Source: a virus
Virus record (IMG/VR): IMGVR_UViG_3300008261_000241
Location: 1-31,871 of that record
Direction: 5' to 3' (one strand)
Length of the DNA: 31,871 bases
Part shown: positions 5,964 through 31,871 of the stretch, in pieces
How positions within the stretch are numbered: position 1 is the first letter of the stretch
Layout of the letters: each line of letters begins with the position of its first letter
Translations under genes and position numbers: made by a program
Notes under the pieces: model-generated
Seen by the model: the letters and a program-made list of their open reading frames with translations, nothing else
Databases searched by the model: none
What the model was told of the DNA's origin: nothing

Positions 5964-5990
5964 AAAACGGACCGTAAGGTCCGTTTTTTT
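5964..5990. terminator. Bidirectional Rho-independent terminator
   Basis: AAAACGGACC-GTAA-GGTCCGTTTT forms a 10-bp stem with a 4-nt loop, followed by a T run on plus (to 5991). On minus the stem is followed by TTTTTAT. It therefore ends both the gp19 transcript and the convergent minus-strand sugar cassette. Confidence 0.9.
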
Positions 5991-6925
5991 TAATCTAAAA
6001 TCTGCATCTGTGCATTATGGGTCTTGCCCTTACCATTAAGTATTTCATTAAGATAAAAAGTAAGTTGATGTAGCTCTTCCCTACTGTAATGAAAATACCT
6101 GCAAGGAAATCCAATGACATGCATCAGATAACTATCACTTGGTCTATGACTTAAACTTAAGAATGCTTGATTAGGATTTGCTATATTTTCTCTTACATGA
6201 GAAAACATAAAAGGCCCGCTATTTTTTCCAACTATAAGCTCTGCTTTAGTTGATAAAAATCCTATCTCGTTAAGGTCACCTCCTTCTACTTCTGCAAATA
6301 TATCATCTGTAAAATATATATTAGATGTATAAGGAAACCACTCGGTACTAAATTTTGTAGTACACACAAATGAAACATCGGGATGAATCTGTGCTAGATT
6401 TTTTATAATCTCTCCCATGGTGCCTAATTGACTTTGAGAACTTTGTGCTATTCCATTACAAAATAAAGCTATACGTCCTTTACCTTCAAGCCATGCCAAT
6501 GCAGGCGCAATATTAAATTTTGACCAATCTGTGGTAGGTATAAGTGCAAATAAGTTAGTAGTATGTTCAATTGGCCTATCTAGATACCATGCTACTCTGT
6601 CGTAGATATACATCCACATTCTATTGAGCATTGGGTAGTTTGCGTGTTCCTCATTAGGAAACATAAAATCTTTATACCCTCCAACCCAGGTGTTAATGTA
6701 GATGGTATCCTCTGATGCAGAAACTCTATGAGAATCTGTTACAGGTATTTGATCAATAGGTAAGTGCGTGAACGGCATATCTCCCATAGTTTTAATCTTA
6801 TTAACCTGTGAATGTGAGAATTCAATATCAGGTAGTTGTCGAATTAAATCTTGCATATAACCTTTACCGGAGAACACATCTCCGTTATGCCACCTATTAT
6901 AAAAACAAATTTTATTGATAGTCAT
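5990..6925 (-). CDS. Putative glycosyltransferase (GT-B/heptosyltransferase-like)
   Basis: 311 residues, last gene of the sugar cassette. The N-terminal segment ICFYNRWHNGDVFSGKGYMQ followed by DLIRQLPDIEF resembles the start of GT-B type enzymes of LPS clusters. The second half has a Rossmann-like pattern (GRIALFCNGIAQ, then DVSFVCTTKF) and ELIVGKNSGPFMFSH, similar to the conserved 'visible in a donor pocket' loop of family 9-like enzymes. Substrate and acceptor cannot be read from the sequence. It overlaps the upstream gene by TAATG-type coupling. A non-catalytic sugar-binding role cannot be excluded. Confidence 0.5.
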   Translation of the reverse strand: MTINKICFYNRWHNGDVFSGKGYMQDLIRQLPDIEFSHSQVNKIKTMGDMPFTHLPIDQIPVTDSHRVSASEDTIYINTWVGGYKDFMFPNEEHANYPMLNRMWMYIYDRVAWYLDRPIEHTTNLFALIPTTDWSKFNIAPALAWLEGKGRIALFCNGIAQSSQSQLGTMGEIIKNLAQIHPDVSFVCTTKFSTEWFPYTSNIYFTDDIFAEVEGGDLNEIGFLSTKAELIVGKNSGPFMFSHVRENIANPNQAFLSLSHRPSDSYLMHVIGFPCRYFHYSREELHQLTFYLNEILNGKGKTHNAQMQILD

Positions 6926-7299
6926 TAGTATATTTTTTCCTCAACAATGTGGCTATTAGTAAGTTCATTAATTTGTCTTTTCACCACTGCTCGTTTATCA
7001 TTATAAATGTAAACAGACCTAGCAAGGTCGATAAACTCCTGATCAAATAATTTTGATTTTTCTTTAATACGTATGTCGTCTTCAATTTGCCAAATAATTT
7101 CATTAATACATTTTAGTTCTAATGACAAATTTCTAATTATTATTGTATCTAAATTAAGCAACTCTGAAAGTTCGTCGAGCTCTTTAGTAATGTTTTGTAT
7201 TTTACCTGTGTCTGACGTGTGATCTAATTTTATCGATAAGATTGTAATTTTATCAATTAACTCTCCTACACTTATTGGAGCCAAAATGCGACTAGACAT
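6925..7299 (-). CDS. DUF6165-like protein of polysaccharide clusters
   Basis: 124 residues, mostly helical. The N-terminal APISVGELIDKITILSIKLD, the central INEIIWQIEDDIRIKE and the ARSVYIYNDKRAVVKRQIN segment followed by a C-terminal IVEEKIY match a small family I recall from LPS and capsule gene clusters (DUF6165). No catalytic motif is visible. The start and stop codons overlap those of both neighbours by one base, so it is made in fixed proportion with the dehydratase and the glycosyltransferase-like protein, and may assist the latter. Confidence 0.6.
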   Translation of the reverse strand: MSSRILAPISVGELIDKITILSIKLDHTSDTGKIQNITKELDELSELLNLDTIIIRNLSLELKCINEIIWQIEDDIRIKEKSKLFDQEFIDLARSVYIYNDKRAVVKRQINELTNSHIVEEKIY

Positions 7300-8465
7300 T
7301 AAATTTCTCCTAGTGTTTTAGCTAGCCATTCTAAATCTTTTTTGGTAACAAAGTGACTATTACCTATATAGACACCATTGTCGTTTAGTAGATCTACATT
7401 TGCATTTTTACGGGGAGTACCAAACTTGTAACCTTTAAGGAAGGGTTGACGTAGCAGGTTGCCTCCTACAATAGGACGATGTTCAACGCCGTTGTCATCA
7501 AACACTTTTTTCATTTTTTTAGTAAGTTCTGGATTTTTACAAATGAACGGAAATGCAAAATTACTGTTATGTATATTATGATCAACAGGATAAAATTTGT
7601 CTTTATGATCGTCCATGATTTTAACAAATTCTTTAAAATTCTGTCGACGCTGGTCAATCATATCGTCAAGGCGAGTAAGTTGACTTAATCCTAATACTGC
7701 ATTAAAGTCGCTACTGCGAAAATTATATCCATCTGTCATGAACAAGAACTGTGGATGTATTTCTGGATACTGGTCAGCATACTTTTTCAAGTTGCCTGAC
7801 TCACGTGCTAGTCCATGACTACGTTTCATACGCATGAGTTCGTATAGTTCGCTGTCATTTACGTTAACCATACCACCTTCAATTGTAGTCATATGGTGGC
7901 CAAAATAAAAGCTAAAACTTGCCGCAACACTATTTGCGCCAACTTTATAACCGTTAATATCTAAACATCCGTGAGACTCGCAAACGTCATCTAGGATAAC
8001 TGCATCAGGAAATATCTCTTGATATAGATTATTATCTGCAGGAAACCCTAACAGATGTGTTACAAACACAATTTTAATATCTGGGTGTTTTTCTTTAATT
8101 TCTTTCATGTGTTCAATATCAAAACTAAAATTTTGTAAATTGACATCACAAAAAATTGGTTTGAAGCCTAACTGAAACACTGGACTAATGTTAGTGACCC
8201 AGGTACATGCCGGAACAAGCACCTTATCACCATCTTTAAATCCGTATTTTTCTTTAACGGCCGCCATGATTAAACTATTAGCAGTGCTACCCGAACTAAC
8301 CATTAACGCATGTTTGCTTCCTACCCATTGAGCCCATTGGTCTTCAAATTCTCGAACACGTGGTCCGTTTGTGTAGCGATCACTAGTAAGTAAAAACTTT
8401 ATCATCTCATATTTGTCACCCCAGGTAACAGCATTTTTCATTAAAGGCCAGCGTGATTGTTTCAT
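7299..8465 (-). CDS. colD: ColD-like GDP-4-keto-6-deoxymannose 3-dehydratase (PLP fold)
   Basis: 388 residues, DegT/DnrJ/EryC1 aminotransferase fold: cofactor phosphate loop SSGSTANS (about 57-64), Asp159/160 in ILDDVCESHG contacting the pyridine ring, and the signature SFYFGHHMTTIEGG (185-198). At the position of the usual PLP-binding lysine (SFxxxKxxT type) the residue is His190. The same Lys-to-His replacement defines E. coli ColD (about 388 residues), a dehydratase that removes the 3-hydroxyl of GDP-4-keto-6-deoxymannose. That substrate is exactly the product of the adjacent gmd gene. The likely product leads toward colitose or a related 3,6-dideoxysugar; a ColC-type finishing enzyme is not in the window. 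Coupled by ATGA to the upstream gene. Confidence 0.8.
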   Translation of the reverse strand: MKQSRWPLMKNAVTWGDKYEMIKFLLTSDRYTNGPRVREFEDQWAQWVGSKHALMVSSGSTANSLIMAAVKEKYGFKDGDKVLVPACTWVTNISPVFQLGFKPIFCDVNLQNFSFDIEHMKEIKEKHPDIKIVFVTHLLGFPADNNLYQEIFPDAVILDDVCESHGCLDINGYKVGANSVAASFSFYFGHHMTTIEGGMVNVNDSELYELMRMKRSHGLARESGNLKKYADQYPEIHPQFLFMTDGYNFRSSDFNAVLGLSQLTRLDDMIDQRRQNFKEFVKIMDDHKDKFYPVDHNIHNSNFAFPFICKNPELTKKMKKVFDDNGVEHRPIVGGNLLRQPFLKGYKFGTPRKNANVDLLNDNGVYIGNSHFVTKKDLEWLAKTLGEI

Positions 8466-9247
8466 AGTTTTCTTTCGATGTCTTCTTCAGAACATTCTTC
8501 TCCGTATTGTATTTCTATTAGTTGTAATGGTTGATCTGTTTCATTACACAGGTGATGCCACTCATTAAGTCCTATCCAAATAGGTTCGTGTTGATTAAAC
8601 GTGCCTATTAATTCTAGATCTGTAGTAATTGAACTTAAGGTGTAAACAGTTGCAATTCCTTCTGCAACAAACCAGAACTCTTTTCTTTTTGCATGTCGTT
8701 GCATACTTAAACTCTTACCAGGCATGACTGTAAGTTCTTTAAGTTTAAGTTGAGTTTCTGTTTCCATGCCGCGTTCGTATAACAGTCTAAAATGCCCCCA
8801 AGGTCTGTCAGTCTGCGGATGTTTCCATTCGCTTAAAATCCAGCGGCTACTATTTTGTTTCCAGTCTCCACCTACACCAAATTGAAAAGACAAATTTGGA
8901 TCACTAGCAAACATTTCTTGTTCAGGAACGTTAGCAGTGTTTCTATCACCGCCATTTGCAAATACAATGTGTGCGTCTGGATACATTGCTCTCACTTGTG
9001 TTATACCGTCAGCTCCAGTACCATCTTCGTCATTAAGATGTAACACTTGATAAACACATTCTAAATTTTCAATAATAGCAGAACGTTCTGAAAACGGCAT
9101 AAACGCTCTACCTTTTTTCCTCTTTAACCAATCGTCTGAGTTAAGACCCACAATTAAAATATCTCCTAACTGCGAAGCAGAATTAAGATAAGATAAATGT
9201 CCAGAATGGACTGGGTCAAACCCGCCGGTACATACAACTATTTTCAT
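8462..9247 (-). CDS. Nucleotidyltransferase-cupin (phosphomannose isomerase type II-like) fusion
   Basis: 261 residues with two parts. Residues 1-140 are an HxGH-class nucleotidyltransferase: [10 protein letters not shown] with H14-S-G-H17, [19 protein letters not shown], and the FANGGDR loop at about 96-102. Residues 145-261 match the cupin seen at the C-terminus of ManC/type II phosphomannose isomerases: RPWGHFRLL, then [20 protein letters not shown] with metal-ligand-type His, and [14 protein letters not shown]. It could activate a sugar phosphate and isomerise or bind a mannose phosphate, feeding the GDP-mannose route, but the exact substrate and nucleotide are unknown. ATGA overlaps couple it to both neighbours. 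Confidence 0.75.
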
Positions 9248-10272
9248 AAAGATAATCCTTTTTTGCTATCATTAAAGCACATATCTGCTACAAGACCTTC
9301 TAACCCAAATACAGGGTTCCAACCTAATACAGTTCTTGCCTTGGTGCTGTCACCTAATAAGGTATTAACATCAGCAGGCCTATAAAATTCTTCGCTTACT
9401 GCAAATAAAACTTTACCCGTATCAACATCTATACAGTGTTCATTTAATCCGCTGCCGCGCCACTCAACATTACATCCAAACCATTTAGCAGACATTGTAC
9501 AAAATTCTCGTACAGTAGTTTGTATACCCGTTGCTAACACATAATCACCTGGAGTGTCTTGTTGTAACATTAACCACATGCCTTCTACAAAATCTTTTGC
9601 ATGACCCCAATCACGTAAGGAATCAATGTTGCCTAACTTTACAGGCTCTTGAGATTCACCTGATAAGATTTTAGCAAGCCCTTTAGTAATTTTGCGTGTG
9701 ACAAAAGTTTCACCGCGCCGTGGACTTTCGTGATTAAACAATATTCCGTTGCTGGCATGTAATCCGTAACTTTCTCTATAGTTTACGGTAATCCAATAAC
9801 CATAGAGTTTTGCAACTCCGTAAGGACTACGAGGATAGAACGGCGTAGTTTCTTTCTGCGGAACTTCTTGAACAGAACCGTACATCTCGCTTGTACTGGC
9901 CTGATAAAATTTTACTTTATGACCAGTATCATGTAATGCTCGAACTGCCTCTAACATATGGAGAACTCCGATGGCATTAGTTTCTGCTGTGAATTGCGGA
10001 ACTTGGAAACTTACGTGTACATGACTTTGTGCCGCCAAATTATAAACTTCGTCTGGTTTAATTTTTAGAAGAATATTCCGAAGATTTGTACTGTCTGTTA
10101 GATCACTATAATGTAATGTAACTCGATTTCTAAATGTTGAAATATTTGGTATGTTTTCAAAATTTGAATTTCGTCTAACTAACCCGTGGACTTCGTAACC
10201 TTTGTCCAAAAGTAACTCAGCCAAATAAGATCCATCTTGTCCAGTGATGCCAGTAATAAGTGCTATTTTCAT
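9244..10272 (-). CDS. gmd: GDP-mannose 4,6-dehydratase
   Basis: 342 residues, full length for the family. It converts GDP-mannose to GDP-4-keto-6-deoxymannose. The short-chain dehydrogenase NADP site is TGITGQDG (7-14); the catalytic set is T127/S128-E129 in ASTSEMYG and Y151-x3-K155 in [10 protein letters not shown]. The segment [17 protein letters not shown] and [20 protein letters not shown] are hallmark GMD stretches. First gene of the minus-strand cassette, preceded by a late-type promoter motif at 10294. A similar enzyme (GDP-fucose or perosamine route) shares this step, so the final sugar depends on the ColD-like neighbour. Confidence 0.93.
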
Positions 10273-12787: not shown

Positions 12788-12814
12788 AGCCCCAAATATT
12801 TGGGGCTTTTTTTT
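12786..12814 (+). terminator. Rho-independent terminator
   Basis: AAAGCCCCAAA-TA-TTTGGGGCTTT is a perfect inverted repeat (12786-12809) followed by T8 to 12814. It closes the operon begun at 10358. A long reading frame can be read through it from 12800, but that is ignored because the real start of the next gene is at 12830. Confidence 0.92.
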
Positions 12815-12816
12815 GA

Positions 12817-12824
12817 CATAAATA
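12817..12824 (+). promoter_or_regulatory. Late promoter CATAAATA
   Basis: CATAAATA (one change from TATAAATA) follows the terminator by two bases and ends five bases before the ATG at 12830, predicting a leaderless transcript. No Shine-Dalgarno is present. Confidence 0.6.
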
Positions 12825-12829
12825 TCTTT

Positions 12830-14053
12830 ATGGCAAACATATTAAATAACTTCTTAAGCGATTTTGCAGGCGGTCTGTTCGGCGATACAGGATATCTCAA
12901 AGATTATAAACACGCCGCAAGATTATATCAAGACAATTACTATGGAATGTCTCCAAAAGCAGGATGGAGCTATTTTGTTGAGATTGGACTAAATCCTGCC
13001 CTACCTGACAAAGCACAATTTCCAGAAGTAAATGCTGATTGGTACAATAGAAGCAAGGGAAAATTAGGGTTACTAGCAAAAACTGTAGATTTACCTAGAG
13101 TATCTATTTCTAACGAAGTTCTTAATTCATATAATAAAAAAACTATAGTACAAAACAAAGTTACATATAATCCCGTATCAATAACTTTCCACGACGATAT
13201 GAATAATTTTATCAGCAACCTGTGGAGTAATTATTATCAATATTACGTTGCTGATAGCAGATATACAGGAACATTGTCCGGATCAGTATATGGCAGGACT
13301 CTCGAACTTCCAGCATCATACAAACCGGGAGCAGAATGGTCCGATCGAGCGTTTGCATACGGGCTTAATAACGGTCAAGACCTGCCGTTCCTATCTTTTG
13401 TAAGAATTTTTTTATTAAACAGAAAACAGTACACATCAATATCTTTAATTAATCCTAAAATAGTTGACTATCAACCGGCCCAGCTAGATCAAAATAACGG
13501 GAACAAATTAATGGATTCAAAATTTACGTTTGCGTACGAAACAGTTCATTATAATAATAACCATCTAGCTAATAAAGTTACTAAAACTAAACCTGGATTT
13601 AATGAAGAACATTACGATAACACTCCTAGTCCTTTGTCTATATATGGTAAAGGTAAAAAAGGTTTACTTGGTATGGTAGAGGGTTCAGCTGATATTTTTG
13701 AAACATTATCATCTCCTGAGCTATCTGTAGGAGATATAATTAAGGTTGCTGTAGGAACTAAAAATTTAGTTCAAAATGCAAAACAAATTACTGGAAAATC
13801 TGCGGCTAGCGAATTAAAAAGTATATTAGTTGGAACTATTGCAGGTGCCGCTGTAGGAAAAGGGGCCGCAGGCGAATATGCAAAAGATGTAATGCGTTCT
13901 CCTGTAGATATTAAATTATTTACGGAGCCGGTGCCTTTAAATACAGTCGCCGCAAATGGAGTTAGTCGGCCTGGCGAATTTAATAGTAAAGGTGATGTTG
14001 TAGATTATCAAGGAAGAGTATTAACTCCTGCTAAACAAAGTGATAAAAAATAA
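12830..14053 (+). CDS. Baseplate tail-tube cap/initiator protein (gp48/gp54 type)
   Basis: 407 residues from the ATG at 12830. The N-terminal third has LKDYKHAARLYQDNYYGMSP followed by KAGWSYFVEIGLNP, then KTVDLPRVSISNEVLN with SYNKKTIVQNKVTYNPVSIT and FHDDMNNFISNLWSNYYQYY. This is the tail-tube fold of the gp48/gp54 proteins, which cap the baseplate and nucleate the tube in T4. I cannot separate the two by eye. The C-terminal 130 residues are glycine/alanine-rich with GKSAASELKSILVG followed by TIAGAAVGKGAAG. It leads a late operon ahead of gp4. Confidence 0.65.
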   Translation: MANILNNFLSDFAGGLFGDTGYLKDYKHAARLYQDNYYGMSPKAGWSYFVEIGLNPALPDKAQFPEVNADWYNRSKGKLGLLAKTVDLPRVSISNEVLNSYNKKTIVQNKVTYNPVSITFHDDMNNFISNLWSNYYQYYVADSRYTGTLSGSVYGRTLELPASYKPGAEWSDRAFAYGLNNGQDLPFLSFVRIFLLNRKQYTSISLINPKIVDYQPAQLDQNNGNKLMDSKFTFAYETVHYNNNHLANKVTKTKPGFNEEHYDNTPSPLSIYGKGKKGLLGMVEGSADIFETLSSPELSVGDIIKVAVGTKNLVQNAKQITGKSAASELKSILVGTIAGAAVGKGAAGEYAKDVMRSPVDIKLFTEPVPLNTVAANGVSRPGEFNSKGDVVDYQGRVLTPAKQSDKK

Positions 14054-16054: not shown

Positions 16055-16534
16055 ATGACAAAACGACTTGAAGAAATCCTTAATATTGAACCTACTGAAA
16101 AAGACGAAGTCAGAGTAGATCCTGTGGAAGTAAGTGTTCCTACCATTGATTTACAAGAAAAACTAGAAGAATTTGACAAAATTAGCGCCGCACTTCCTAG
16201 GGTTAAGGGGCTCGGCGATCTCAGCGACTCTGAACTAGATCAACTTGCAGGAAAAGCAGAAAAAGCCTATGATGATCTTATGGATTTAGGTATGCAGGTA
16301 GAGGCACGTTACAGTACTCGTATGTTTGAAGTAGCTGGGCAGATGCTACAGGCGGCAATTACAGCTAAAACTAATAAAATTGATAAAAAACTTAAAATGG
16401 TCGATCTACAACTAAAGAAGCTGGCAATTGATAAAAAGCACGGTGCCGCAGGCGGCGAGCAAGTCGACGGTGAAGGTTACATACTTACAGATCGTAATAG
16501 TATTCTGGAAAAACTTAAAAATATGAATAAATAA
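16055..16534 (+). CDS. gp16: Terminase small subunit gp16
   Basis: 159 residues; T4 gp16 has 164. It recognises DNA and stimulates the gp17 motor during packaging. The conserved part is a long helical hairpin: LSDSELDQLAGKAEKAYDDL, then GMQVEARYSTRMFEVAGQML followed by AAITAKTNKIDKKLKMVDLQ. The position two genes upstream of gp17 agrees. The C-terminus ends in YILTDRNSILEKLKNMNK. The stop overlaps an ATG (16534) as TAATG, but the next gene is taken to start at 16552. Confidence 0.8.
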   Translation: MTKRLEEILNIEPTEKDEVRVDPVEVSVPTIDLQEKLEEFDKISAALPRVKGLGDLSDSELDQLAGKAEKAYDDLMDLGMQVEARYSTRMFEVAGQMLQAAITAKTNKIDKKLKMVDLQLKKLAIDKKHGAAGGEQVDGEGYILTDRNSILEKLKNMNK

Positions 16535-16551
16535 TGCATCGGGAACCTATC

Positions 16552-17169
16552 ATGAAAACATTTAAAGAATATCTATCAGAGTCCAAAAAAACCTATAATT
16601 TTAGGATTAAGGTCGCTGATAACGATTTTGGTAAAGATCGAGAAACCGCACTAGAAAATTCACTAGCTAGATTTGCAATATCTTCTTTTAAGAAAACAGG
16701 CAAAACACCTATCCAACAATTACCATTAGATTTTCCACAGCTCAAGAATACAGAAGTTAATATCTACGAAGTAAACCTAGATTATCCAACAACACAATTT
16801 GAACTCAAAGAATATCTAGCTAGTGAACTTAAAGTTACTAGAGATCATATTGTAGTGCGTAGTCCAGATGAACCATACGAACAATACCAACAAGAAACTG
16901 AAAAGCGCGAGGGTGCGCTACTTTTAGATAACGAATATAAAGAAGCACCAGATGTAAATCCAGAAGATTACTACGGTGACAAATACAATTCAGGATTTGT
17001 GCAAGAATTAAATGCAATTCTTAAGTTACAAAGAAAAGAGCGAGGGGAAGTTATTCCTGAAGCATCTGATAGCAATACTGGCGCAACAGCAAAGGCCAAG
17101 TTTAACACGGACGCACCTCAAAATAATAAGAGTCCTGTAGTTCAAGCAGCCGACTTAAGGAAGAAATAA
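16552..17169 (+). CDS. Probable head-internal protein with capsid-targeting N-terminus
   Basis: 205 residues from the ATG at 16552; an ATG at 16534 would add six residues. The first residues MKTFKEYLSES align with T4 internal protein III (MKTYQEFIAEA), whose first ten residues target it to the prohead core and are cut by gp21 protease after L/I-x-E. Here L8-S9-E10 is followed by S11. The rest is acidic and disordered-looking (EPYEQYQQETEKREG) with no enzymatic motif. Position between gp16 and gp17 fits a head gene. The function beyond targeting is unknown. Confidence 0.6.
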   Translation: MKTFKEYLSESKKTYNFRIKVADNDFGKDRETALENSLARFAISSFKKTGKTPIQQLPLDFPQLKNTEVNIYEVNLDYPTTQFELKEYLASELKVTRDHIVVRSPDEPYEQYQQETEKREGALLLDNEYKEAPDVNPEDYYGDKYNSGFVQELNAILKLQRKERGEVIPEASDSNTGATAKAKFNTDAPQNNKSPVVQAADLRKK

Positions 17170-17171
17170 TT

Positions 17172-18293
17172 ATGCAAATGATCAATGTATTACAGCGTCT
17201 AGCTGAATTAGATGGACAGAATCCAAACGTGGTTCCGGCCAAACCAAAAGTAAGTGCAGATGCTGCCGTCGAAGCAGTACAACGCACACTATCAGAAGAG
17301 TTAAGTGTAGAAAGTCTACGTTATCTTTCTGGTGTTAAAAATACGTTAGAAGAATGTGGTATGATGCCTAGTATGGAAAATATGATGCCAAGTGCTCCTA
17401 CTATTCCGGCAAGTTTTAGTATTAATGCATCAGCATCCAGTGGCGACGAAGTTGCTAGTATGTTGACACAAATTATGAATCTAGCGGGTGTTAAGCCAGT
17501 TGGTTCTCAAGATATGCCTTTAGAACCAGGTGCACCTGATACGGGGGATGCATTAGCGTCTCGCGGTAACGGTAATGACGAAATGAAAAGAATGATTGAC
17601 GTCATGAATGAGCCAAGAGGCCCAGGTGACAATGCTCCACCAGATATGGATGGTCCAGAAGATGAAGGCATGTTAGGTACTATGGCAGGTGCTGGCATTG
17701 GTGCCGCGTTAGGTGGTCCTTTAGGTGCGGCAGTTGGCGGTGCAGCCGGTGATAGTATCACAGACCCAGAAGAAGAAAGTCTAGGTGAAGAGCCTCCCGT
17801 TGATATTGCAGGCGTGGGTGGTGGTTTAGCTGCCGCAGCCTTGTCTGGTGGCGATCCCGAAGAAATTGCCGCAGGTGTTGAAGCAGGACAAGAAGCAACT
17901 GAAGGCGATCAAGTGTTAGTACCTGATGCAAAAGAAGACATGCGTAGATTGATGGATATGATCGGCGGTGGTCTTGACAATGCTCCAAACGATCCTAACA
18001 ATATCCCAGATTTTGATTCGAACAAAATGGCATATCAACCAAATGATGCTAACGTGGGTGACAGAATGGATGGTACTATGCCAAAAGGTTTTGCTGAAGA
18101 TACAATGACTCAAAAATTGTTTAATGATTATCAACAGTTTATGACTGAAGGCAGCAAAGTAGATCAAAACAAAGATGGCAAGAATGACTGGGAAGATGTA
18201 AAAATGCACATCAGACACAAAAGTGGACTGAGGATGATATTGCACATCTTCTTAAATGTCAAGATTTTGATACTGGACCAGATTACTTTATAA
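17172..18293 (+). CDS. Acidic glycine-zipper protein ahead of terminase, unknown
   Basis: 373 codons as read; true end uncertain. Starting at the second ATG (17178) the N-terminus is MINVLQRLAELD, again L8-x-E10. The middle is Asp/Glu/Pro-rich and contains a glycine-zipper segment at about 169-196 (GTMAGAGIGAALGG, then GAAVGGAAGDSI). The end KVDQNKDGKNDWEDVK looks natural, but the last 29 codons (from MHIRHKSG on) do not: they overlap the terminase frame. The gene may have lost its natural end or may continue by frameshift into terminase. Likely a head component from location. Confidence 0.6.
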   Translation: MQMINVLQRLAELDGQNPNVVPAKPKVSADAAVEAVQRTLSEELSVESLRYLSGVKNTLEECGMMPSMENMMPSAPTIPASFSINASASSGDEVASMLTQIMNLAGVKPVGSQDMPLEPGAPDTGDALASRGNGNDEMKRMIDVMNEPRGPGDNAPPDMDGPEDEGMLGTMAGAGIGAALGGPLGAAVGGAAGDSITDPEEESLGEEPPVDIAGVGGGLAAAALSGGDPEEIAAGVEAGQEATEGDQVLVPDAKEDMRRLMDMIGGGLDNAPNDPNNIPDFDSNKMAYQPNDANVGDRMDGTMPKGFAEDTMTQKLFNDYQQFMTEGSKVDQNKDGKNDWEDVKMHIRHKSGLRMILHIFLNVKILILDQITL

Positions 18294-19756
18294 GAAACTT
18301 CTTTTATATACAACATCCAACCCAAGGTAAAATACAATACGATCCGTTTAGCTATCAAGAAAATTTATTAGACAGTTATCACACTCATCGTTTTAGTGTA
18401 AACATGTTAGGACGACAAATGGGTAAAACTACCACTGCGGTAGGCTATTTGTTGTGGTATGCTATGTTTGTTCCTAACAGCACAATTCTTATTGCCGCCC
18501 ACAAATATACAGGCGCACAGGAAATTATGCAACGTTTACGTTATGCTTACGAACTTTGCCCTGATAGTATACGATGTGGAGTTACAAGTTACAACAAGCA
18601 AAGTATTGAATTTGATAACGGTTCTCGTATTATGGCGCAGACAACTACAGAAACAACCGGTCGAGGTATGTCTGTATCTTTATTATACTGCGACGAGTTT
18701 GCCTATGTAGAGCCTAACATTGCTACAGAATTTTGGACTTCTATTGCCCCTACATTATCCACAGGCGGTAAGGCAATTATTACAAGCACACCTAACAGTG
18801 ACGAAGACCAATTTGCGTTAATTTGGAGTGAAGCTAGTAAACGATTTGATGAATACGGTAATCAAACAGAACTAGGCCGTAACGGGTTTTATCCTTACAT
18901 GGCAATCTGGAGCGAGCACCCAGACCGCGATGAAGTATGGGCTAACGAGATGAAGTCTCAGTTGGGCATTGAACGGTTTGAACGAGAACACGAATGTAAG
19001 TTCTTAATTTTTGACGAAACATTAATTAACTCTATTAGCCTTGCAAATTTAGAAGGAATTGAACCAAAAATGAAAATGGGGCAAGCCCGTTGGTATAAAA
19101 AAATTGATACATCCTGTACCTATATTGTTGCACTAGATCCCAGTTTAGGTACAGGGGGTGACCCGGCTGCTATTGAAATTATAGAATTGCCTAGTATGAT
19201 ACAAGTCTGTGAGTGGCAACATAATTCAACTCCTGTACAGGCACAGGCAAGAATTTTAAGAGATTTATGTAAACATATAGACGAACAATTTGTCGCCGAC
19301 GGGCTTAATACTTCTTTATATTATAGTGTTGAAAATAACACCGTCGGTGAAAGTGCCCTAGTTTCAATTAACGAATTAGGAGAAGAAACAATCCCTGGGT
19401 TATTTTTAAGCGAGCCAATAAAGAAAGGGCATGTTCGTAGATTCCGCAAAGGATTTAATACAACACACTCTGCTAAATTGTCCGCCTGCGCCAAGTTAAA
19501 ACAACTTGTAGAAACTAAAAAAATAGAAATTAATAGCAAACCGTTAATAAGTGAACTTAAAACATTTATTGCAAACGGAATAACATTTAAAGCAAAAACT
19601 GGGCAACACGACGATATGGTTTCTGCATTATTACTAGCAATTCGCATGATTATGATGCTACAAGACTGGGATCCGCATATCTATGATAAAATGCGAGATC
19701 ATAGCGGCCTAGAAGAATACGATATGCCCTTGCCAATCTACATTAATAGTTTTTAA
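18203..19756 (+). CDS. gp17: Terminase large subunit gp17 (no in-frame start codon)
   Basis: ATP-driven DNA packaging motor and nuclease. From the first ATG in this frame (18404) the protein has 450 residues, but conserved coding runs back to about 18203 (NAHQTQKWTEDDIAHLLKC, then IQHPTQGKIQYDPFSYQENL). Walker A is GRQMGKTT, with Walker B LLYCDEFAY and coupling TSTPNSDED; nuclease acidic residues are in ALDPSLGTGGD, SVENNTVGES and HDDMVSA. Between the TGA at 18185-18187 and 18404 no ATG, GTG or TTG occurs, so the N-terminus must come from upstream: by a -1 shift at A-AAA (18200-18203), from a missing base, or because a deletion removed the start. About 517 residues are conserved; T4 gp17 has 610. 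Confidence 0.85.
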   Translation, partial: NAHQTQKWTEDDIAHLLKCQDFDTGPDYFIRNFFYIQHPTQGKIQYDPFSYQENLLDSYHTHRFSVNMLGRQMGKTTTAVGYLLWYAMFVPNSTILIAAHKYTGAQEIMQRLRYAYELCPDSIRCGVTSYNKQSIEFDNGSRIMAQTTTETTGRGMSVSLLYCDEFAYVEPNIATEFWTSIAPTLSTGGKAIITSTPNSDEDQFALIWSEASKRFDEYGNQTELGRNGFYPYMAIWSEHPDRDEVWANEMKSQLGIERFEREHECKFLIFDETLINSISLANLEGIEPKMKMGQARWYKKIDTSCTYIVALDPSLGTGGDPAAIEIIELPSMIQVCEWQHNSTPVQAQARILRDLCKHIDEQFVADGLNTSLYYSVENNTVGESALVSINELGEETIPGLFLSEPIKKGHVRRFRKGFNTTHSAKLSACAKLKQLVETKKIEINSKPLISELKTFIANGITFKAKTGQHDDMVSALLLAIRMIMMLQDWDPHIYDKMRDHSGLEEYDMPLPIYINSF

Positions 19757-19762
19757 TAAATA
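19755..19762 (+). promoter_or_regulatory. Late promoter AATAAATA
   Basis: AATAAATA overlaps the gp17 stop and ends five bases before the ATG at 19768, again predicting a leaderless mRNA. No Shine-Dalgarno is present. Confidence 0.55.
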
Positions 19763-19767
19763 ACACT

Positions 19768-22086
19768 ATGAATACTCACATCATCAGCCAGGACGTTTTT
19801 GACAAAATTCGTAGCCGTTTTAGAAATCTTGAAATGGGCGATCCTCAAGGAGAAGTTACCGCTAACCCTAAAGAAGCACACTTTTTTGATTTTGATTTTG
19901 TAGTTGAAGATAAAAATTTAGGCAGAGTTAGTATAAGCATTAATGAAATCGGTTGTTTAAAAGTATTTTACAGTCAAAATATTTTAGAAGATGCTGACGA
20001 TTTTACAAAAGATATTTGGTATGACTTCTTAAGAGAAATGAGAATGTTTGCTAAACGTAGACTTTTACGATTTGACACACGAGATATTACCAAGAAAAAT
20101 CTCGACAAAGATGATTTTCAACACTTGGCATCATCTAGTATAGGAAATATGGATATGAATGAATCGATTAAATTTGAAGGAACTAAAAAGACAAGTAGAC
20201 GAGTTTTAGAAAAAACTACCCTTGTTGTTCGACATAAAAATAGCATCGAAAATGAACAAGCAGGTGCTAGAAGTCGACGAAATAATATTAAAGCATTGTT
20301 TATTGAAAATTCTGAAGGCGAACGTTTCAAATATCCTTTTATTCATGTAGCAGGAGCAAAGGCAATGCAACGGCATGTTGCCAACGGTGGACGCCCATAT
20401 GATGAGTTTGGCAATGCTATCATAAGAATGAGTGAGCAGATCAGCCAGCTTTCAGAATTTAAACGCAAAGTGAGTCATGATAATCTAAATCAATCAGTTA
20501 ACGAAATTACAAACAGAGCTAATACAAAATTAGAATCTCTCCGTAGACAAGTTGAAGGATTAGGCGGACAAAACTACTACGAAAAGTGGAAAGAAGGTTT
20601 TGTTCCGAATGCCGGATCAGATCTAGTTATGGACCAAGCTACTCTCGAAGACTATAAACATAAATTTACAGTTTCAAGTTTTAAAGAAGAATTAGCACAA
20701 TATTTTCCTTTAATTCACAGTATTATGCAAGAAGCAAATACTGTAGATTTAGAAGATGTTGTAAGCGAGGGCAATGAAGCCGAGCAGTGTGATGTATGTG
20801 ATCGTCCAAAAGATGATTGTGTATGTGACGATGTTAAAGAACATGCAAGTTTTAGAGATTTTGTAGAGTGGGCAAATAGAGTAGAAGAAGGCAAATTAGG
20901 CATGGATCAACTTGGGGATCTACATGACCTGTTAGAAAAAGGATTACCTTTAGGTGTAGACGGAGTAAGCGCCATTGAAGCACTAGAAGGCATCGGCATA
21001 CACGATGAAGAACTATTTGCAAAACTTGAAGCAATGGCTGATCCTGAACAAGGCGGCAATCCGGAAACAGATGTAAAAGACACAGTGTTATCTTGGTTAA
21101 GTGCAAGCGATCCGGAAGCGGCACAAGAATTTGGATATGAACCAACTGATGAAAGCAATGAAGAAGAGATGAAAGAAGTAGCATCTCCTAGGGTTATTGC
21201 AGAATTGGTTTATTCTATGTATAACAAAAACCATAAAGAAGAAAATTTAGGACCGTTCCCTAAAGGAAAACACGGTGTATTAACCGCTGTAAAAAAACAG
21301 TTTGGAGATGAAGGTATGAAAATGGCAGAAGTATTGGTCAACTATTTAGACCCACAAGAAAATGAAGGTATGTCCGGTGCGGCATTAGGTGGAGTTGCCG
21401 GAGCTATAGCAACCAAAACACCAGGTGGCGCAATGGCTGGTGCTGATATCGGAAGTGCAATCCAAGACAAATTGGGAGAAGCTGTAGAAGACCGAACATC
21501 TTATAAAGTAGCAAAATTTTTATTCGATAAAGGGTTGAGATATAATCCTCAAAATGAAAAACAGATCATTAATAAAATGGATGATGCAATGATTGCTATG
21601 AATATGCCTGCAAAAACTATTCAGTATCTATTAAGACACGACGAAGATTTTATCGGAGACACACTAGGCGAACTCCGACACATGGAAGATGCAGTAGCCG
21701 AGTTAGCCATGGCTTCGGTCGCGGCAGAGGGTATCAAAGATATTGCCAAAAAAGTAGGCGGCGCAGTTAAAGCTGGTGCTAAAGCAGTTGGTAAGGCCAT
21801 TGTTGGCCCAGATGACGAAGAATTGCTACAGAGATTAGAAAAAGAAACTGGTGGGAAACGTCCAAATGCTTACAATAAGCCAAAGAATGAAGCCACTGAC
21901 GACAAAAAGTTTGATCCATTAAAACATATTAAAAATCCTACCCAGGGAGAAAAAGACGCTGCCAAAGATGTCAAACGTGGAAGTTATTCGGATCGTGCCG
22001 CAATGTTAAAATCAGCAGAAACTGACGGCAGATTAAAAAATGAAGACGTTAATATTATTTTAAAATTAGCCGGTTTGGCAAAATAA
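19768..22086 (+). CDS. Large virion structural protein, unknown
   Basis: 772 residues, following gp17 under a late-type promoter. N-terminal 330 residues are mixed alpha/beta with VSISINEIGCLKVFYSQNIL and a coiled stretch near 240-260. A cysteine cluster C341-x2-C344-x6-C351-x-C353 (CDVCDRPKDDCVC) suggests metal binding. Then come an acidic helical region, a glycine-zipper segment at about 536-566 (GAALGGVAGAIATKTPGGAM then AGADIGSAIQ), and a C-terminal lysine-rich tail ending VNIILKLAGLAK. Proteins of this size and ending occur in marine T4-like phage virions, but I do not recall a role. Confidence 0.6.
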   Translation: MNTHIISQDVFDKIRSRFRNLEMGDPQGEVTANPKEAHFFDFDFVVEDKNLGRVSISINEIGCLKVFYSQNILEDADDFTKDIWYDFLREMRMFAKRRLLRFDTRDITKKNLDKDDFQHLASSSIGNMDMNESIKFEGTKKTSRRVLEKTTLVVRHKNSIENEQAGARSRRNNIKALFIENSEGERFKYPFIHVAGAKAMQRHVANGGRPYDEFGNAIIRMSEQISQLSEFKRKVSHDNLNQSVNEITNRANTKLESLRRQVEGLGGQNYYEKWKEGFVPNAGSDLVMDQATLEDYKHKFTVSSFKEELAQYFPLIHSIMQEANTVDLEDVVSEGNEAEQCDVCDRPKDDCVCDDVKEHASFRDFVEWANRVEEGKLGMDQLGDLHDLLEKGLPLGVDGVSAIEALEGIGIHDEELFAKLEAMADPEQGGNPETDVKDTVLSWLSASDPEAAQEFGYEPTDESNEEEMKEVASPRVIAELVYSMYNKNHKEENLGPFPKGKHGVLTAVKKQFGDEGMKMAEVLVNYLDPQENEGMSGAALGGVAGAIATKTPGGAMAGADIGSAIQDKLGEAVEDRTSYKVAKFLFDKGLRYNPQNEKQIINKMDDAMIAMNMPAKTIQYLLRHDEDFIGDTLGELRHMEDAVAELAMASVAAEGIKDIAKKVGGAVKAGAKAVGKAIVGPDDEELLQRLEKETGGKRPNAYNKPKNEATDDKKFDPLKHIKNPTQGEKDAAKDVKRGSYSDRAAMLKSAETDGRLKNEDVNIILKLAGLAK

Positions 22087-31633: not shown

Positions 31634-31641
31634 AATAAATA
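31634..31641 (+). promoter_or_regulatory. Late promoter AATAAATA
   Basis: AATAAATA ends five bases before the ATG at 31647, the same spacing as at 12830, 19768 and 129. The predicted mRNA begins at the ATG. It lies divergently to the next motif. Confidence 0.55.
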
Positions 31642-31646
31642 CCGAT

Positions 31647-31871
31647 ATGCAAAATTTACCAGTCTATTTATATTCCAATTTGTTCGAAGTTATACTAGAT
31701 CTGGACAATAACAGAGGAATACATCAAATTATGTATCAACGCCCTATTAAAGTACAGAAAGGTGTAAAAAACACTATTCAAATTCAGTTCAAAAATTCTG
31801 ATCAAAAAAAGGTTAGTATAAATGGACAGCAGTTTTATTTAAATGTTTTTGATCAAGAAAACAGAAAGTTA
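31647..31871 (+). CDS. Virion-type protein, N-terminal 75 residues (runs off the window)
   Basis: The plus strand is open from the ATG at 31647 to the window edge (75 codons, no stop): MQNLPVYLYSNLFEVILDLD, then GIHQIMYQRPIKVQKGVKNT with IQIQFKNSDQKKVSINGQQF. The opening is like those of structural proteins in marine T4-like phages that are annotated only as virion components. A late-type motif five bases before the ATG agrees. Length and function cannot be judged from this part. Confidence 0.65.
   Translation, partial: MQNLPVYLYSNLFEVILDLDNNRGIHQIMYQRPIKVQKGVKNTIQIQFKNSDQKKVSINGQQFYLNVFDQENRKL
31665..31672 (-). promoter_or_regulatory. Late promoter TATAAATA for the 31240-31626 gene
   Basis: The minus strand reads TATAAATA, a perfect consensus match, 38 bases before the ATG at 31626. 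It lies inside the coding start of the divergent plus-strand gene. Confidence 0.65.

Follow-up and report, generated by a model that had tools for sequence, protein, structure and literature searches.

Large terminase subunits (TerL) of the T4 gp17 type (PF03237/PF17289) combine an ATPase and a nuclease domain, and relatives of this type begin at an ordinary ATG. The terL gene of the IMG/VR virus record IMGVR_UViG_3300008261_000241, analysed here over its whole length of 31,871 nucleotides (the window), is alike in both domains and aligns with these proteins over nearly its full length after the N-terminus, differing only in that its 5′ end is missing from the contig. Programmed −1 frameshifting in phages, as in tail assembly chaperone genes, has overlapping frames and an A-run in common with the window, which, however, lacks the canonical heptamer, the structure and the conservation, and is not a member of this class. 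Chimeric or lossy joins of metagenome-assembled viral contigs have in common with the window an abrupt switch of sequence, which falls here where the population's other assemblies end, although the window has no Ns and no long repeat at the join, just a short imperfect overlap (TAAAA). Judged by comparison of the sequences, terL seems to be without a start only because the contig lacks the stretch that carries it.

Results

The terL frame is closed by a TGA at 18185-18187 and contains no ATG, GTG or TTG before 18404, as the preliminary description had reported; the open frame extends from 18188 to 19756 (522 codons, stop to stop), and the ATG at 18404 opens 450 amino acids with the N-terminus MLGRQMGKTT, at Walker A. 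The upstream gene does read into this region one frame ahead (ORF 17172-18293, 373 aa, overlapping terL), and the arithmetic behind the proposed 861-residue product of a −1 step on the A5 run, located at 18200-18204, is right. The assignment to gp17 also holds, with matches to PF03237 (Terminase_6N; 1.3e-15, above cut-off) and phrog_36964 (2.6e-114). The P-loop, GRQMGKTT, is that of a Walker A ATPase, and the RNase H-like nuclease C-terminal domain PF17289 was found at 24.5 bits (cut-off 22.6). By terL, the nearest named phages are the PA5oct-like Pseudomonas phages (53% identity) and Sinorhizobium phage Phosso (49%). The conserved gp17 coding, which had been said to begin at about 18203, is present, but real homology begins exactly at the junction, at 18206; the tblastn matches of nearly all full-length relatives begin at query residue 2 (window base 18206), because the window left of this base is not terL sequence. 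The features of the region are the following.

17172-18205, plus strand: gene of structural type and unknown function that has lost its 3′ end at the junction; relatives carry it directly before terL, complete with a 3′ end and stop of its own
18199-18206, plus strand: junction, reading GATGTAAAAAT followed by GCACATC in the window and CTTGTTAAAAGA followed by GCACATC in two contigs of the same population
18204-18206, plus strand: ATG that lies at the junction in the frame of the upstream gene and does not start terL
18206-19756, plus strand: terL, T4 gp17-like terminase large subunit by homology and domains, 5′-truncated by about 10-14 codons including the ATG
18404-18406, plus strand: ATG at Walker A, the earliest in frame in what is left of terL, but not where the native gene starts

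In two relatives (L071 and L079; the same sequence occurs in L064-L066) Walker A of terL is interrupted by an intein-like insert that is over 300 residues long, with the boundaries LGRQMGK^ALSLETPI...LIPTHN^TTTAVG.

Viral contigs scanned with terL yielded 80 relatives, and scans with the neighbouring genes added more loci. A native N-terminus with a start codon, of the kind M-A-S-K-N-L-D-G-N-L-V-K-K-AH..., is present in all 102 distinct readable relatives, the in-frame ATG lying 9-20 codons (mostly 10-14) upstream of the site that matches window base 18206; only L001 and L032, cut by a contig end, could not be read and are excluded from this count. The N-terminus is absent from the window, which we attribute to the join and not to the gene. 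Recoding of terL, one of the options that had been left open, finds no support in the ordinary ATG of its relatives.

Before this ATG, nearly all relatives have a block composed of a terminator hairpin, a T-run, a T4-like late promoter TAAATA, 5 nt and the ATG; the hairpin, for example AATAGCCTCTTCGGAGGCTATTTTTTT, is followed by CAGTAAATA or CATTAAATA, five bases and ATG. The hairpin and T-run directly before the late promoter are near-identical in most relatives (e.g. L010, L016 and L082). The spacing between TAAATA and ATG is exactly five bases in 83 of the 90 distinct terL starts with an upstream TAAATA, and over all genes of 26 loci, which partly overlap in origin and give counts that are not independent, 57 sites have a spacing of 5 and at most 17 have any other spacing between 0 and 24. 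Exceptions with longer spacing, in L022 and L053, have a Shine-Dalgarno-like GAGG or AAGGA before the ATG. The promoter-start part of the block occurs in the window at other late genes.

19757-19770, plus strand: TAAATA-N5-ATG before the ORF at 19768, an intact example of the block that is missing before terL
118-131, 12819-12832 and 31636-31649: further TAAATA-N5-ATG sites, before the ORFs at 129, 12830 and 31647

At ORF 12830 the site is in addition preceded by a terminator hairpin and a T-run (about 12789-12818).

In relatives, the copy of the upstream gene has its own stop codon before the terminator-promoter block, whereas the window ORF consists, from about 18205 on, of terL sequence read out of frame. 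The upstream gene ends about 125 bp before the terL ATG in L010 and L075, which are among the closest relatives on both sides, and 53-70 bp before it in most others, with the terminator and TAAATA-N5-ATG in between. About 270 nt separate the end of the upstream homology from the terL junction codon in L010, as compared with about 20 nt in the window. Since the upstream genes and terL of L010 and L075, as well as the downstream gene of L010, all rank with the window's best matches, the two halves joined here are the right neighbours; they are also alike in composition (GC 0.377 and 0.367; tetranucleotide distance 0.204 between halves vs 0.22-0.25 within them), and therefore give no sign of origin from unrelated genomes. 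The C-terminus of the upstream protein (KVDQNKDGKNDWEDVKM) had no convincing match to a known module in phage records (one match, E = 9) or in the relatives compared, and the left flank of the same population, sought with the neighbouring gene at 16534-17166, returned only relatives at no more than 69% identity.

A C-terminal module of about 45 residues (KFDPLKHIKNPTQGEKDAAKDVKRGSY.DRAAMLKSAE.DGRLK) is common to two different structural-type proteins, namely homologs of ORF 17172 (in L003, L007, L010, L016, L018 and L075) and the product of window ORF 19768-22086, and differs between close relatives as if it belonged to a set of swapped C-terminal tags. Elsewhere in the window, sugar-nucleotide genes (GDP-mannose dehydratase/epimerase and aminotransferase) lie on the minus strand between phage tail genes, at 5990-10272.

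The same phage population is represented by two IMG/VR contigs from different samples, 3300008110 (L097) and 3300008267 (L098), also numbered L001 and L002 at the junction comparison. From 18199 to the right, they share 99.96-99.97% identity with the window over 13.4-13.7 kb and differ from it by only three (L097) and two (L098) substitutions besides the junction bases. In both, the CTTGTTAAAAGA that precedes GCACATC codes for LVKR, the expected N-terminal coding of terL, as in relatives; immediately left of the join, TAAAA alone is common in register to all three. Both contigs end at the identical base, 12 nt upstream of GCA, so that assembly of this phage stops at that place, and the window junction falls within those 12 nt, for which simple arithmetic gives a random join a chance of about 24/31871. 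The population thus reads differently across the join, as a misjoin predicts. The exact junction was found in no other IMG/VR contig, nor did any of them contain an exact match to the left flank at 18108-18136, and a search of the window for repeats of at least 22 nt that might have caused the join revealed one unrelated pair only.

In L097, a 109-bp deletion corresponding to window positions 31649-31757, absent from the window and from L098, takes away the beginning of ORF 31647 immediately after its TAAATA-N5-ATG site. Contigs of this population therefore contain start-removing losses, whatever the cause.

Discussion

Assembly error, deletion and recoding had all been left open for the terL 5′ end. 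A missing segment, whether artefact or deletion, stands from this list, and recoding and a single-base error in the A5 run do not, because every distinct readable relative has a normal upstream ATG and because in two other samples this phage carries the usual terL codons at that point. The window, a contig from a metagenome, belongs to a phage whose terminase is of the T4 gp17 type, and quite probably contains a join at about 18199-18206 that is false or lossy. Such a join would link the 3′ part of the structural-type upstream gene directly to terL codon ~11-15, and the skipped stretch, estimated against relatives at about 100-270 bp, would have held the end of the upstream gene, the rho-independent terminator hairpin, the T4-like late promoter, and the terL start with its first codons. 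An assembler may have merged the ends of two contigs where they overlap briefly and imperfectly (TAAAA..G), and this cause is favored over a deletion in the real molecule because L097 and L098 share their contig end close to the join. The 5 nt in common at this join are fewer than assemblers normally need, which counts against a misjoin. In the real phage, terL most likely has an ordinary ATG as its start, so that no recoding is required.

A real deletion would mean a defective phage genome or minority variant in which promoter, start and first terL codons are genuinely absent, and which would need intact helpers. It is unlikely, though to be taken seriously: at base resolution the join is clean and shows TAAAA microhomology, and L097 of the same population has an independent deletion, but the start of an essential packaging gene would have been lost and its neighbor truncated, the native codons are present elsewhere in the same population, and the position coincides with the shared contig end. 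It would be most surprising if the deletion had given rise to a real replicating genotype, with terL placed behind the upstream gene without start or promoter and TerL made only as a frameshift fusion.

Recoding at the terL 5′ end is very unlikely. The frames would fit a −1 step at A-AAA, yet A-AAA-ATG is not a canonical X-XXY-YYZ slippery heptamer and no downstream structure is apparent (fold z = 0.07, with 105 of 200 shuffles as stable). The two genes are separate in all relatives, without any fusion and nearly always with a terminator, and a promoter, between them, neither the overlap nor the slip site is conserved, and the same population has other bases there, leaving true ribosomal frameshifting into an 861-residue upstream protein-TerL fusion with a minimal probability. 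Less probable still is that one wrongly sequenced or assembled base masks a normal in-frame reading. The A5 run is a homopolymer, but the added A that had been suggested would merely fuse two proteins that every relative examined encodes separately, and the native bases upstream of the junction in L097 and L098 differ beyond any one-base change. Equally implausible is a start at the rare CTG at 18188, the first codon after the TGA, or at the ATG at 18404 beside Walker A: the former has a context without counterpart in relatives, and the latter, while opening 450 aa, would lose about 66 residues that align in full-length relatives.

With a missing segment preferred over a recoded gene, a false claim of recoding or fusion in the literature is avoided; no misassembly or frameshift case of this kind at terL appeared in the titles and abstracts of the literature searched. 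Such a contig error would mislead gene callers into starting terL at Walker A and giving the upstream gene a false C-terminus.

The late promoters of T4 span positions −13 to −6, counted from the start of transcription (PMC1524935). With TAAATA ending five bases before the ATG, +1 would therefore fall on the A of the ATG, which suggests that late mRNAs in this phage group may be leaderless. The conserved block of terminator, late promoter, exactly 5 nt and ATG before late genes thus predicts leaderless late mRNAs and merits a study of its own.
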